DNA from: Fictibacillus arsenicus
GTDB taxonomy: Bacteria; Bacillota; Bacilli; Bacillales; Fictibacillaceae
Length of the DNA: 64,000 nucleotides
Reading direction: 5' to 3'
Assembly (NCBI RefSeq): GCF_001642935.1
Contig: NZ_CP016761.1
Coordinates: forward strand, 310,001 to 374,000
In this document: positions 4,953 through 12,202 of the stretch, piece by piece
Position numbering within the stretch: the first letter of the stretch is position 1
How the letters are laid out: each line of letters starts with the position of its first letter
Made by a program: the position numbers and the translations under genes
Notes under the pieces: generated by a model
Told to the model about the DNA's origin: nothing
Database searches by the model: none
Seen by the model: the letters and a program-made list of their open reading frames with translations, nothing else

Positions 4953-6053
4953 TTATTTCTGTCTTGCAGCAGCCCTTTTTTCAATTTCCGCATTAAGCGA
5001 CTTTTGAATTTCATCAATCTTGTTAAAGTCCATGGCTCCCACATAATATTTCTCTAACTCATCATGCTTTCGTTTGGCTTCTGCTAGAAAGCTGATAGCT
5101 TCTTTCATTTTTTCTGAATATCGCCAGCTTATGACCTTTAACTCAGCAGTATATTTTTCATCTGTACCTGGTGTGATTGTTTTTGCGTACATATCTACAA
5201 TGGAGTCACCAGACCGTTCAGGAAAATATTCATGCGGTGCAGTACTGTCAAAGATCGCAAAACCCAGCTCTCTCACAATGACCATATCAAGGCTGTTCGG
5301 ATCGAAACCGCAGTGATAAATCTCCACATCATAACCAGATGCTTCAGCATTGGCTGCAAGTTTTTTTAACATAGTGGACTTACCAGAACCAGGACGTCCT
5401 TTAATAAAGTATCTTTCCTTTAAACCCTCAGTTAAATTTGGAACGAAGTCTTTAGCCCCTAGCGGAGTGGCTGCTCCTAAGAAACGGTGATAGACATCTC
5501 CTTGTGTGTTCTGTTTTTTCGAAAAGAATTTGTGCATCAGTTCATCTGTAAGTTCATTCGCCTTGTTATAGTCCATATTCTCGATATAAATCTTTTCCCA
5601 TTCGTCGTGAACAAGCAAGGCTTCATGGAAGATGGAATAAGCCGTTTGGAAATCAGCAGAAATTTCCTCGGATAGCTGAAGAATTTCTATCTTATGTTCA
5701 GCAAGCTGATTGGAATCCCACGCAACACCTAAGTTCACGTATTCCTCAATTGCACCTGGAGCTTTTGGTTCAATAACATGGGGAGAAGTTCCATCAACAA
5801 TTCCTACTTTCAAATCACGCAGTATGACACCATCGATTGAGCCATTATCAGAAGCACAATGGATATACTCAACATCATACCCCTCGTCGTTCCACTTTTT
5901 TCCGATGGCTTTCATTAATGTAGACTTGCCTGTTCCAGGTCCGCCCTTAAGTATAAAAAGACGTTCAAGGCCGTTAAGATTCGATTCAAATAAGTTATGA
6001 AAACCCCTTGCTGTATTGCCGCCAGCATAATAATTCAGAATTTTTCCAGTCAA
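4953..6053 (-). CDS. double P-loop ATPase (PRK06851-type protein)
   Basis: About 366 residues form two homologous halves. Each begins with a Walker A: GGPGTGKST near residue 40 and GRPGSGKST near residue 225. Each continues with a YDVE.. strand, an HC motif (YIHCASD and IYHCGFD), and an ATSPHV- or TAPHEY-type loop, and ends with a helical tail containing MDYNK or MDFNK. This is an internal duplication. The family is widespread in Firmicutes but has no assigned function that I know. The TTG at 6053 is chosen because AGGAG lies about 11 nt upstream and would overlap the alternative GTG at 6065. It is monocistronic; no partner is evident. Confidence 0.8.
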   Translation of the reverse strand: MTGKILNYYAGGNTARGFHNLFESNLNGLERLFILKGGPGTGKSTLMKAIGKKWNDEGYDVEYIHCASDNGSIDGVILRDLKVGIVDGTSPHVIEPKAPGAIEEYVNLGVAWDSNQLAEHKIEILQLSEEISADFQTAYSIFHEALLVHDEWEKIYIENMDYNKANELTDELMHKFFSKKQNTQGDVYHRFLGAATPLGAKDFVPNLTEGLKERYFIKGRPGSGKSTMLKKLAANAEASGYDVEIYHCGFDPNSLDMVIVRELGFAIFDSTAPHEYFPERSGDSIVDMYAKTITPGTDEKYTAELKVISWRYSEKMKEAISFLAEAKRKHDELEKYYVGAMDFNKIDEIQKSLNAEIEKRAAARQK

Positions 6054-6263
6054 TTTTAAAAACACTCCTCTTATAGTTAGTTGTGTTTCCTACATGTATA
6101 GTATGAGAAGGAGAACGAATAGGTGAAAGCCTAAGAAAAGAGTTTAATAATTAAATTGTTGAAATATGATGAAATAAAAAGAAATTTTACGAAAAAAGAA
6201 GTATGACTAACAAAAGTGGAATAAAAGAAGGCCAAACAACATAATATTGATTATTCTGAATAT

Positions 6264-6291
6264 TTGAAATAAATTAAAAATAGGTTAATAT
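6264..6291 (+). promoter_or_regulatory. sigma-A-type promoter for the structured RNA
   Basis: TTGAAA (6264-6269) and TAATAT (6286-6291) are separated by 16 bp in an AT-rich tract, with predicted initiation near 6298. It lies just upstream of the repeated RNA modules and points toward them. Confidence 0.6.
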
Positions 6292-6338
6292 GTAGTTAAC
6301 AAATGAAACACAACCTTTACAAGGAAGGCGTGATTCCA

Positions 6339-6365
6339 ATGACGCAAGTAAGCGAAGCATATTAA
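6339..6365 (+). other. micro-ORF 1 (8 codons) in RNA module 1
   Basis: The sequence encodes MTQVSEAY and stops with TAA. AAGGAAGG lies about 10 nt upstream of the ATG. The last codons and stop overlap the 5' arm of helix P1, so translation would compete with folding. It may be a real leader peptide or a by-product of a conserved RNA motif. Confidence 0.35.
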
Positions 6366-6463
6366 ATCACATCCAGGTAGAGATCAGCCCGTGAAAACTG
6401 ATTTCGAGATGTGTGGATATGCGGGAACGCGCAAATACACATTACGGAAAGAGGATGATTCCA

Positions 6464-6490
6464 ATGACGTATGTGAGCGAAGCATGCTAA
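6464..6490 (+). other. micro-ORF 2 (8 codons) in RNA module 2
   Basis: The sequence encodes MTYVSEAC and stops with TAA. GGAAAGAGG lies 9 nt upstream. Compared with micro-ORF 1, the V codon changes synonymously (GTA to GTG), while the last residue changes together with the P1 helix. Confidence 0.35.
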
Positions 6491-6680
6491 GATCATGTTG
6501 CAGACGGAAATAGCCGGTGAAAACTATTTTCGCAGCGTGTGGGCATGTGGGAAATTACCAGAGTGAAGGAAAAATATTGATCTAATGCAAGGCAATTGAT
6601 TGAACGGACAATTAATTGAAGTCTAGTTATGGGATGAATAACTAGCATTGTGTATTAGTAAGAAAGGAAAGAAAGTTTAA

Positions 6681-6704
6681 GTGAATATTGTGAGTGAAAG
6701 CTAA
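6681..6704 (+). other. micro-ORF 3 (7 codons) abutting the terminator
   Basis: GTG-initiated, it reads MNIVSES then TAA, sharing V-S-E with the other two. AAGGAAAG lies about 9 nt upstream. Its stop codon directly abuts the 5' arm of the terminator, the geometry expected if ribosome position influenced termination. Confidence 0.3.
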
Positions 6705-6748
6705 AGGCGCTGTTTATGTGATATATACATATTCAGCGTCTTTATTTT
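6705..6748 (+). terminator. intrinsic terminator of the structured RNA
   Basis: AGGCGCTG (6705-6712) pairs with CAGCGTCT (6734-6741), with an inner ATGT/ACAT pairing, followed by a T-rich run. It sits only 60-70 nt before the start of the SWIM gene. Confidence 0.75.
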
Positions 6749-6811
6749 GTTCAAGTTCAAACATAAGATACAATGGCTTTAAGAAGGTTTATACAGTTGG
6801 AGGAGATTGAT

Positions 6812-8437
6812 TTGCTGCTTTCTAGCATTGAAAAACACATAGATCATACAATACTGAATCGCGGCCTTCAATACTATGAAAGTGGTTACGTAGAAGAGCT
6901 TGACGAGATAGTTCCAGGTCGATATGAAGCAACTGTGACTGGAACAGAAGATTATTTTGTGGAAGTTACATTAAAAGAAAATACAATAATGGAGAGCTAC
7001 TGTAGCTGTCCATATAACTATAGCCATATATGTAAGCACCAGGTTGCTGTCTTTTTTTCTATAAGAGAAAAAACACCGATTGAACAGAAAGTGAAACAAA
7101 GTCTGCCCAAAATGCTTAAGGAATTAAAGAAGAATGAACTTATAGACATAATAGTGGATATAACAAATGAAAATACAGATGTAAAAAAGCAGTTATTATA
7201 TTCTTTAGCCAAGCCTTCTGACGAAATTGAAGAAGCTAAGAAGTTGATTAAAGAATATATTAAAAAAGCTAGAGTACATGGTTTTATTCATTATGAAAAA
7301 ACAGATTTAGCACTAACTGGCGCCCACCATGTACTAAATAAGGCAAATAATAAAATTAACAACCAAGAATACGAGCTTTCAATAAAGATGAGTATTCTTG
7401 TTTTATCAAATATAGTCGACATGATTTTATATTGTGATGATTCAGTAGGAACAGTTGGACAAGTCATACATGAAGCTATATTTACGGTTAAGGATGCTGT
7501 ACAAGAAGGTGCAGATTCACTATCTGAATCGGAACAAAAAACTATATTGGAATTGATATTAAAAGAAGCGCAAAACAAAAGATATCAAGAAGTGAATGAT
7601 GAATGGAGTTATGTTCTTATTCAAACGTGTATTCCATTAATCAGAAATGTTGAAAACAGAAAGTTAATAGAGAGTGTACTATTAAACTTGCTTAGACCCT
7701 TAACAAGAAATAGCTGGAATTATGAATACATTAAATCTATTCAATTAGAGATAATAGAACAGAATGATAGATATGAAGACGCAGAAAAATTCATTTTGGA
7801 TAACATCGAAATAAGTGAATTTCGTGAAAGAGCCATTAAGAATTACTTACACCAAGGTTATTACGAAAAAGTCGTAGAGCTCTGTTTAGAAGGAGAAAAG
7901 AATGATAAGCCTAGACCAGGGCTAATCATAAAATGGAAAAATCATAGGTATGAGGCATATGAAAAAATGGGAGAAACAATCAAACAAAGTGATCTGGCTA
8001 TAGAGCTTTTACTTCAAGGGATGCATAAGTATTTTGAAATTATAAAACGCTTAACACCTCCAGAACAGTGGGAAAAACTTTTTCAAGAAATTTTATCGGG
8101 ATTGAAAAACTCAAGGATATATGTGGACGTTTTGATAGATGAAAACCAAACAGGATTGTTGTTAGATTACTGTAAGCAAAATCCTTATGATGTTGTTAAT
8201 TTGTATCCCTATCTCATTAAAGAACATTTTAATGAAGTATCTTCTTTATTTAGAGAATACATTAACATAATGGCTGGCAATGTGTCTGATAGACGAGGGT
8301 ATAAGCGCGTTTGCAAAGAAATAAAGGTATATAAAAAAGCTTGCGGAATGGAAAATGTAGAAGAATTAAAAAATGCACTGAAGGTAAAATATAAACAGCG
8401 TCCGGCGTTTGTTGATGAACTGAATAAAATAAAATAA
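6812..8437 (+). CDS. SWIM zinc-finger domain protein
   Basis: This is a roughly 541-residue protein with an N-terminal SWIM zinc finger (CSCPYNYSHICKH, about residues 64-76 from the chosen start). The rest is a long, mostly helical region rich in acidic and lysine residues. SWIM fingers bind nucleic acids or proteins; no enzymatic domain is seen. The TTG at 6812 is preferred because GGAGGAG lies 6 nt upstream; an in-frame ATG at 6773 lacks a ribosome site. The gene is AT-rich and follows the terminator of the structured RNA, so it may be expressed by readthrough. Its role is unknown. Confidence 0.8.
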   Translation: MLLSSIEKHIDHTILNRGLQYYESGYVEELDEIVPGRYEATVTGTEDYFVEVTLKENTIMESYCSCPYNYSHICKHQVAVFFSIREKTPIEQKVKQSLPKMLKELKKNELIDIIVDITNENTDVKKQLLYSLAKPSDEIEEAKKLIKEYIKKARVHGFIHYEKTDLALTGAHHVLNKANNKINNQEYELSIKMSILVLSNIVDMILYCDDSVGTVGQVIHEAIFTVKDAVQEGADSLSESEQKTILELILKEAQNKRYQEVNDEWSYVLIQTCIPLIRNVENRKLIESVLLNLLRPLTRNSWNYEYIKSIQLEIIEQNDRYEDAEKFILDNIEISEFRERAIKNYLHQGYYEKVVELCLEGEKNDKPRPGLIIKWKNHRYEAYEKMGETIKQSDLAIELLLQGMHKYFEIIKRLTPPEQWEKLFQEILSGLKNSRIYVDVLIDENQTGLLLDYCKQNPYDVVNLYPYLIKEHFNEVSSLFREYINIMAGNVSDRRGYKRVCKEIKVYKKACGMENVEELKNALKVKYKQRPAFVDELNKIK

Positions 8438-8656: not shown

Positions 8657-9322
8657 ATGAACGGATTTTTAGCTTTTTTTATCCGCATGTTTGTTGCTGT
8701 GCCATCCTCTGTAGGGGTGTGGCTGGCGAGTATTATTGCGTATGACCAGACGTATCTCATGTCATCTGGGATCGCCGTGGCGGGTGGAGCTGCCGCATAT
8801 ACAGCAACAGGGCTTCTGCAAAAGCAGCGATTTCTTAGCAGCCATCAACTATCAAGACGAGAATATAAATACATCAGAAAAAATTTAGACGAAGCAAAAC
8901 CGAAGATCAATCGCCTCCAAAAAGCACTGCTTTCTGTCAGAGACTTGCCAACTTTAAAGCAAAGAGCAGACTTGGTGCGGGTAGTGCGGAAGATTCATAG
9001 CTTAATTCAAAAAGAGCCAAAGCGTTTTTACCAGGCTGAGCAATTTTACTTTTCCCATTTGGATTCAGCTGTCGAACTTACGGAGAAATATATGTTTTTA
9101 ACAGCACAGCCAAGAAAAACGAAAGAACTCACAAAGTCTTTAGTGGAAACAAAACGAACACTTGATGAGCTAAAAGAATACATCGAAAAGGATTTATACC
9201 AAGTTTTGTCAAATGATATAGAAGACCTTCATTATGAGATCGATGTGGCGAAGTATTCGATCAAATCTTTGAAAGAATCACAATCTATTAAAAAGGCAGG
9301 AGATATACATGAAAGAAAATAA
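8657..9322 (+). CDS. xpaC: XpaC-like protein (5-bromo-4-chloroindolyl phosphate hydrolysis family)
   Basis: This 221-residue protein has two N-terminal membrane segments (about 3-28 and 33-52) and then a long, charged, helical cytoplasmic region. It matches the XpaC family, named for a BCIP-hydrolysis phenotype; the true activity is not established. It overlaps the TelA/YaaN gene by 14 nt, as the B. subtilis xpaC-yaaN pair does, which suggests a shared complex at the membrane. Upstream lies a possible envelope-stress promoter. Confidence 0.88.
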
Positions 9323-10560: not shown

Positions 10561-11895
10561 TCACGAAGCTTTTGCTTCTAACGTATCTAGTTTTGAAGAT
10601 TTTTTACTGAAGTTGCTGATAACTATTCCAACACCTGTACCGACAAGGGCTGGAAGAATCCATTGTAATCCCATCGAGGATAGTGGAAGGATATCTTTAA
10701 TAACTTGAACCGGACCTAAACCAATACCAAAAGCAAGTAAACCATCCATCAGGGCAAATACACCTGTAAAAAGAATGGCACTGCCATACACTTTTTTTGG
10801 ATTTTTGAAGAAACGGTTAAAAAACGTAAGTGCAATTAATACGATTGTTAAAGGATATGCTGTGACTAGAAACGGAACCGACACTTTAAGGATCTGGTTC
10901 AGACCAAGATTAGAGAGAGTGAAGCTTACAAGTGTGACAAGCAAAACTACAGTTTTGTAGCTAACATTTGGAATTAGTTTTGAGAAGTATTGGCCACACG
11001 CTGCTGTTAGACCAACAACTGTAGTAAAGCAAGCTAATGTAAAAATAAAACCTAGTAAGGCTGTTCCACTTTCCCCTAATAATAGAGTGGAGGCTGCTGA
11101 AAGAATATCTGTTCCATTTTCAAAGGAACCGGCGGCTGCCATCTTTCCACCGATTAACCCCAAACTGACATAAACCAGCGCAAGTAATGTCCCGGCAATC
11201 AAACCGGCTTTTAATGTATAGGTTGTTAATTTCTTTCGCTCCCGAACGCCTCTTTGTTGGATTGCTGTAAGAATAACAATCCCAAAAGCCAGTGCAGCAA
11301 GTGCATCCATTGTGTTATATCCCTCGATGAACCCTGTCGAAAAAGCACCGGATTGATAGTTAGCAGTTGGTGACTGAAGTGGAGCATCTAATTTAACAAA
11401 TCCTACTGTACATAGTACAACCATCGCTAAGAGCAAGGTTGGCGTAATCCAGCGGCCCATATATTTCTCCATTTTTGATGGATTCAGGCTGATTGCATAA
11501 ACAAGTGCGAAAAAGATAGCCGTGAATAAAAAAAGAATAAGTGCTGCGTTAGAATTATTGCCCAAGAATGGTTTAAGACCCATTTCATAAGCAACGTTTG
11601 CGTTTCTTGGGATGGCCAGGAATGGTCCGATACTTAAATAGATCACCATCATGAAGATGGTGCTGAACAAAGGATGAACACGATTGCCAATGGTTTGAAC
11701 CCCTCCTTTTACAAGGGAAACGGCAAATAATACGGCAAAAGGAAGTCCAACACCTGTAACGATAAATCCTGCCATAGCAACCCAGTAAGATGATCCGGCT
11801 TCAGCTCCCAAAAATGGAGGGAAGATTAGGTTTCCTGCTCCAAAAAACATTGAAAATAACATAAGTCCAATAAAAACGGTGTCCATCTTTTTCAT
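10561..11895 (-). CDS. brnQ: branched-chain amino acid transport system II carrier protein BrnQ
   Basis: This is a 444-residue integral membrane protein of the LIVCS family, importing Leu/Ile/Val with Na+ or H+. The N-terminus has the signature FSMFFGAGNLIFPPFLG, and about twelve hydrophobic segments follow, including GFIEGYNTMDALAALAFG. The start ATG has GGAGAG about 9 nt upstream. A T-box leader lies directly upstream, so expression should rise when a cognate tRNA is uncharged. It is monocistronic and convergent with xpaC-yaaN. Confidence 0.95.
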   Translation of the reverse strand: MKKMDTVFIGLMLFSMFFGAGNLIFPPFLGAEAGSSYWVAMAGFIVTGVGLPFAVLFAVSLVKGGVQTIGNRVHPLFSTIFMMVIYLSIGPFLAIPRNANVAYEMGLKPFLGNNSNAALILFLFTAIFFALVYAISLNPSKMEKYMGRWITPTLLLAMVVLCTVGFVKLDAPLQSPTANYQSGAFSTGFIEGYNTMDALAALAFGIVILTAIQQRGVRERKKLTTYTLKAGLIAGTLLALVYVSLGLIGGKMAAAGSFENGTDILSAASTLLLGESGTALLGFIFTLACFTTVVGLTAACGQYFSKLIPNVSYKTVVLLVTLVSFTLSNLGLNQILKVSVPFLVTAYPLTIVLIALTFFNRFFKNPKKVYGSAILFTGVFALMDGLLAFGIGLGPVQVIKDILPLSSMGLQWILPALVGTGVGIVISNFSKKSSKLDTLEAKAS

Positions 11896-11929: not shown

Positions 11930-12180
11930 AAAAACTCGCCCCTATAGCAGGGACGAGTTATTGCTCGCGTTACCACCCTAATTCCGCAGCTAAATAAAAA
12001 AGCTTGCGGCACTCAGTCAACGTACGATTATACGTGTTCCATTGTAACGGCGGACGACCCGTCAAAGCTTCCATTATCAGCTTTGCATCTCAGAGATGAT
12101 TTTCGGATAAGGCCTGAACATCAGCTTTCACCAAGCGCTGATTCTCTGGGGAACAGGGTCATATCTTACTCTTTCTCGTC
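11930..12180 (-). promoter_or_regulatory. T-box riboswitch leader of brnQ
   Basis: On the minus strand, the T-box core AGGGTGGTAACGCGAG lies just before a terminator (AACTCG..CGAGTT and a T run, 11930-11959). Upstream is a long stem I region with an AGTA-like 5' segment and a GAAAATCATC 3' segment. The specifier is most likely an Ile AUC codon in that segment, but the register is ambiguous. Uncharged tRNA binding would favour the antiterminator. A branched-chain amino acid specificity fits the brnQ target. Confidence 0.9.
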
Positions 12181-12202
12181 ATTGATTTTAATATTAATAG
12201 TA

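Follow-up and report, generated by a model that had tools for sequence, protein, structure and literature searches.

The window, a stretch of 64,000 nucleotides of Fictibacillus arsenicus (class Bacilli according to NCBI; its genome consists of a single contig of 4,055,461 bases), contains two tandem hairpin modules in a gene-free region, and each of them is, as read from its letters, a Shine-Dalgarno region followed by a start codon and a nearby in-frame stop codon, which the earlier note had not noticed. The explanation considered best, with a probability of about 0.4, is that they belong to a tandem structured minigene array that would engage ribosomes and brake translation under nutrient limitation. 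The anatomy of such arrays, comprising modules, hairpins, starts, stops, Shine-Dalgarno regions, their serial arrangement and the lack of a conserved downstream gene, is well supported by sequence comparison, and from it we infer that the RNA is transcribed and translated and that the selected output is ribosome engagement rather than a peptide. If the RNA is translated as predicted, initiation and termination would themselves be the product, constituting a new mode of translation regulation in Bacilli, and it would become clear why gene finders, for which the ORFs are too short, as well as RNA catalogues could overlook a transcript this widely conserved. Function aside, the arrangement would be categorically new.

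Both modules are flanked on one side by the divergent ORF 4953-6065 on the minus strand, with ATPase-like P-loops by eye, and on the other side by ORF 6773-8437 on the plus strand, SWIM-like by eye, which adjoins the RNA. At four homologous loci (L005, L009, L011 and L016), the next ORF downstream encodes instead 221 amino acids, the same length as the window ORF 8657-9322. The whole RNA feature spans approximately positions 6250-6748 and hence is wider than the coordinates 6298-6548 given at first. It looks like a separate transcript of about 450 nt, with a putative sigma-A-type promoter at 6264-6291 on the plus strand (TTGAAA, 16 nt, TAATAT), recognised by its match to the consensus, and a strong predicted intrinsic terminator at 6703-6748 on the same strand (AAAGGCGCTG...CAGCGTCTTTATTTT). 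Promoter-type sites as such are in no real excess, with four in the region as compared to a mean of 3.3 in shuffles. A simple terminator scan of the region, restricted to loops of 3-8 nt, gave none, and missed the terminator at 6703-6748 because its hairpin has an internal loop. In the 3' domain, folding predicts a further hairpin at 6623-6645 on the plus strand (CTAGTTAT/ATAACTAG).

The tandem modules are real and fold as claimed, with about 108 nt each instead of the approximately 110 nt first estimated, and can be recognised as two direct repeats, one of 35 nt with 86% identity and one of 42 nt with 76%, at a spacing of 125-126 nt. On the basis of a covariance model of the long module (R1) and covariation, module 1 extends from 6325 to 6431 and module 2 from 6450 to 6557, both on the plus strand. 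All the claimed landmarks, the three helices per copy and the paired base changes are found in the sequence, with P1, P2 and P3 located at 6357-6362/6417-6422, 6368-6373/6408-6413 and 6380-6387/6398-6405 in module 1, and at 6482-6487/6543-6548, 6494-6501/6532-6539 and 6506-6513/6524-6531 in module 2 (all plus strand). The fold of the module 1 region beats 200 out of 200 dinucleotide shuffles (z -3.06). The module 2 region by itself is unremarkable (z -1.26, with 22 of 200 shuffles equally good) and therefore two copies are insufficient as proof without homologues. Using 28 homologous units of the long form, covariation is found to hold in the larger alignment: 95.3% of cells are paired and 14 of 26 pairs are changed on both sides, as measured on MAFFT alignments that are not structure-fitted, and none of the slid controls matches this covariation. 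A short form of about 60-75 nt, which is a module without P2 and P3, exhibits 100% paired cells in P1 with all six of its six pairs changed on both sides among 13 units. A conserved outer helix P0 (UUCC with GGGA) is not claimed, since it pairs in 100% of the long-form alignment without both-side changes; in the short-form alignment 84.6% of its cells are paired.

Homologous copies occur in the order and in other families of the class. A nucleotide search revealed the RNA in 36 of 198 genomes, counting the own one and including at least one weak case (G146) judged false by eye, and the R1 model found it in 43 of 397 order genomes at E<=0.001. A second model, R2, built from the short form that was recognised among weak R1 matches, gave 52 of 397 order genomes and 14 of 299 class genomes at E<=1e-5, both counted by hand, nine of the latter lying outside the order, and four of 299 phylum genomes at the same threshold, all within the class. 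At the looser E<=0.01, R2 matches 143 of the 397 order genomes, many of them by chance. The exact module pattern is confined in a pattern search to 11 stretches, all from Fictibacillus. In the own genome, allowing up to three mismatches, the pattern gave eight matches, exact only at the two modules and with no convincing extra copy, as compared to 13 matches with the reversed pattern used as a control. A mobile element was considered and rejected, since the window RNA had no match in plasmids or phages; the lone pattern match on a viral contig lies within an ORF of 1181 residues and was taken as chance. From the model searches 56 loci were taken, of which 37 were curated as true, and 108 unique modules were obtained from 55 loci with hand-set ranges, representing 32 of these 37 and 23 of 30 nucleotide-search loci, with the remaining loci adding none. 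Loci that appeared coding or weak by eye (L089, L146-L150 and L162-L171) were left out. Three true loci missed by the anchor pattern (L158, L159 and L174) mostly agree with the others, with one L159 copy lacking a start.

In the window, the Shine-Dalgarno regions at 6321-6334 and 6448-6459 precede mini-ORF 1 (6339-6365, ATG...TAA, MTQVSEAY) and mini-ORF 2 (6464-6490, ATG...TAA, MTYVSEAC), respectively, all on the plus strand, and the peptide M[TK]xVSEA[CY] recurs among module ORFs. A start triplet in register is present in 104 of the 108 unique modules (ATG 88, GTG 12, TTG 4), where the search required TG after CC, AC or TC and only the first start base was free to vary; the four modules without a start are three near-identical copies of L081 and one degenerate copy of L076. 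As raw counts uncorrected for shared ancestry, the first in-frame stop follows after two sense codons in 48 of 104 modules and after eight in 33, with the others at one or 3-18 and never more than 18 sense codons. Stops at codon 3 comprise TAA (25), TAG (18) and TGA (5). In tests on 102 modules, defined by a different uniqueness rule (98 from the curated list and four further real ones), the two stop positions appear nearly mutually exclusive, with codon 9 being a stop in 32 of 56 modules with a sense codon at position 3 as compared to four of 46 with a stop there (Fisher p 2.5e-7). Neither stop is found in 24 of the 102 modules, whose ORFs extend to 18 codons at most. Frame +1 closes immediately in 92 modules, because the A that opens codon 2 follows TG; closure of frame +2 is spread over 1 to 51 codons (27 at 3).

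Codon 2 specifies Thr or Lys in 88 of the 102 unique modules as compared to 17 of 54 window ORFs. It is AAR in 40 cases and never AAY, and 11 of 48 ACN codons end in T (p 8e-4), a pattern not expected from a plain RNA motif. The covarying hairpin begins 18-21 nt past the first start base, at 18 in 63 of 102 modules, as determined by a search confined to the vicinity of the anchor. This anchor, used for finding the modules, is a looser form of the AGCGAAG motif, whose AG/AGG-CGAA/G form is present in 39 of 46 modules with a stop at codon 3 and in 51 of 56 others, and hence is also kept behind stops. The strength of the Shine-Dalgarno pairing depends on the length of the anti-Shine-Dalgarno used: with 12 nt, modules and window genes are alike (medians of -10.0 and -9.6 kcal/mol), cutting it to the CACCUCC core leaves the modules with the weaker pairing (median -5.4 as compared to -6.8, p 3e-4), and with 17 nt theirs is the stronger (-15.9 as compared to -10.8). 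It is UGAUUCC that gives the 17-nt advantage, and this sequence may be conserved for some other purpose. A Shine-Dalgarno stronger than that of genes was thus discarded as a feature of the modules, being true with 17 nt only, gone with 12 nt and reversed with CACCUCC.

Another short reading frame ends at the terminator. In the window, a Shine-Dalgarno region at 6660-6675 precedes a GTG...TAA mini-ORF at 6681-6704 of seven sense codons (VNIVSES), whose stop is located on the terminator stem, both on the plus strand. All 44 unique loci tested have a 3' mini-ORF of 6-9 sense codons with a clear Shine-Dalgarno, and in each of them its stop ends -4 to +7 nt from the start of the terminator stem; 4.6% of mononucleotide-shuffled regions satisfy the same rule. 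This count is based on 47 hand-copied stem positions, 44 of them unique, as automatic terminator picks were partly missed or wrong, and omitted L020, L026, L027, L030, L082, L085, L152 and L154. With the stem located by a supplied motif, the 3' mini-ORF is also present in seven of seven further omitted loci and in L158 and L159, and by eye only in L085. Its length is held and its peptide varies widely (VNIVSES, LNKIYLS, VQRKFQE); some families have a recurring M-x-E-E-I-V or similar peptide ending in E-I-V or alike, with the final V codon varying between GTA, GTG, GTT and GTC.

Upstream, an A+T-rich palindrome at 6250-6264 on the plus strand (ATTATTCTGAATATT) abuts the -35 element and resembles a CodY box, with three mismatches to the consensus AATTTTCWGAAAATT as given in PMC6256015, according to which CodY sites tolerate up to four mismatches. 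Within 400 nt upstream, the best CodY-like match has three or fewer mismatches in 41 of 55 loci as compared to 6.8% of mononucleotide-shuffled regions, statistics that are only suggestive because many loci are close relatives. By eye, 34 of these 41 loci have the match where the promoter appears to be, whereas in L018, L026, L027, L074, L075, L087 and L153 it lies elsewhere; the remaining 14 of 55 loci have matches only with 4-6 mismatches. These 4-6-mismatch matches are also the best ones in members of family f50 (L138, L139 and L142-L144), in which the upstream region differs and ATCACC could, by eye, pair with a later GGTGAT. The RNA is possibly under the control of a CodY-like operator. 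In Staphylococcus aureus, the ribosome-hibernation gene hpf is under CodY control, according to PMC6256015.

Downstream, among ORFs of 70 codons or more, the nearest one shares the strand of the RNA at 29 of the 55 loci and runs on the opposite strand at 25, with one locus yielding none; its products differ between genera by eye, and no conserved downstream gene was found across these loci. Of the earlier suggestion of a new small RNA or leader, the RNA part therefore stands, and a conserved, covarying RNA of about 450 nt is supported with the putative promoter and predicted terminator as its ends; the leader part is not supported, since the terminator precedes any gene and the downstream ORF is on the opposite strand in 25 of 54 cases. 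The claim of no known family likewise holds, as no Rfam 15 model matches the RNA. At gathering thresholds across the whole window, only an unrelated T-box was obtained; at E<=10 in the region 6080-6800, four sub-threshold matches appeared, the one on module 2 having 13.3 bits as compared to a gathering cutoff of 38, and eight homologous loci gave none. The T-box leader itself (RF00230, 129.7 bits) is located at 11946-12191 on the minus strand upstream of ORF 10561-11895 on the same strand, which by eye resembles a branched-chain amino acid permease. Among the matches listed for openly licensed PMC papers, none presents an array of this kind in its title or the opening of its abstract, which does not imply its absence from print.

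According to the proposed mechanism, a ribosome would load at each module through a gene-like Shine-Dalgarno and an ATG, GTG or TTG start, and would usually add a single residue, in most cases Thr or Lys, or else seven before reaching a stop codon that lies before or within the covarying hairpin. As reckoned from ribosome footprints, a stop at codon 3 would bring the ribosome just to the hairpin base, and ribosomes on 8-codon ORFs would enter the hairpin. The last mini-ORF terminates on the transcription terminator. Phage lambda bar minigenes shed short peptidyl-tRNAs and hold initiating ribosomes, and the modules share with them a Shine-Dalgarno, a start, very few sense codons and a stop; by analogy, initiating ribosomes may be held and short peptidyl-tRNAs shed here as well, the net effect being a translation brake when nutrients are limiting. 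Since the peptides drift, dipeptides are improbable as a product and the signals and hairpins persist, ribosome engagement appears to be the most plausible output under selection. Somewhat doubtful is the wider proposal of a nutrient-controlled Bacilli RNA whose sole output would be occupied ribosomes and short peptidyl-tRNAs, tuning global translation without a protein, with CodY as the link to amino-acid and GTP status.

Similar elements are known: lambda bar and synthetic two-codon minigenes likewise consist of a Shine-Dalgarno, a start, one more sense codon and a stop, and, according to PMC8708949, two-codon minigenes that combine a strong Shine-Dalgarno with a last codon called 'toxic', for instance ACT, inhibit translation. 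Thr as the last codon, described there as toxic in two-codon minigenes, is frequent at codon 2 in the present modules. However, the lambda bar and synthetic minigenes are single elements and not a conserved chromosomal, structured tandem array, and unlike them the array has its own putative transcript and a second class of ORFs with eight codons. The natural two-codon minigene of axe-txe also has a Shine-Dalgarno and a Thr codon in the last position, but its action is exerted in cis and concerns txe, the toxin gene, whereas the array lacks a target gene and carries a covarying hairpin in every module; the cis action of the axe-txe minigene and its lack of toxicity in trans (PMC8708949) count against the proposed explanation of the array. 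Among structured uORF candidates, the fthC motif and uORFC-6-1, as presented in PMC11109978 and PMC8632094, have conserved start and stop codons and a Shine-Dalgarno among stems, but they precede one consistent gene, which the present tandem RNA does not.

Sponge RNAs of the CsrB/RsmZ type carry repeated modules imitating ribosome-binding sites, and those of the CsrB type titrate CsrA. The modules could similarly mimic a ribosome-binding site with a hairpin and titrate an RNA-binding protein, with the stops merely clearing ribosomes, and such a role, judged rather unlikely, would account for the tandem copies and the standalone nature of the RNA. The unpaired AGCGAAG retained after stops is, by its conservation where untranslated, an RNA-level site beyond ribosome capture alone, and therefore keeps this alternative alive. 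Nevertheless, start and stop codons are kept here in addition to the mimicry shared with CsrB/RsmZ, the restriction at codon 2 and the near-exclusive stop placement suggest that translation matters, and the pattern search of the own genome gave no convincing further copy. GGA, a hallmark of CsrA sites in loops, is found by eye in the Shine-Dalgarno and tail regions and is absent from the P3 loops of the window. Translation of the mini-ORFs could also act in cis, stabilising or remodelling the RNA or modulating the terminator, with another part of the RNA as the effector through base pairing or a protein; the position of the last stop on the terminator stem agrees with this, and two-codon minigenes have been proposed to protect mRNA in cis (PMC8708949), but no conserved downstream gene exists for readthrough to serve, and such an action likewise appears rather improbable.

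That the mini-ORFs encode functional micropeptides is very unlikely, despite the recurrence of M[TK]xVSEA[CY] and the E-I-V-type 3' ending maintained in some families across synonymous codons, since two sense codons are all that 48 of the 104 module ORFs contain, the same nucleotides persist downstream of stops and the 3' peptides diverge as widely as the examples above. Covarying stems with conserved loops would also fit an aptamer for a metabolite, such as a riboswitch, or a leader serving the gene that follows, but the absent Rfam match, the terminator preceding any gene and downstream ORFs whose strand and, judged by eye, product vary between genera make this highly improbable. Returning to the minigene array as the preferred reading, array sizes reach eight and 11 modules in the wider family. 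An array of eight similar modules is located at 2658-3339 of L081, three of which have AAG for the start codon with the remainder intact. The 11 modules at 2745-3565 of L154 alternate from the second onward between M-K-stop and 8-codon ORFs (MENRKAKA or MGNGKAKA), and genome G403 harbors the RNA at four separate places (L155, L156, L157 and L174).
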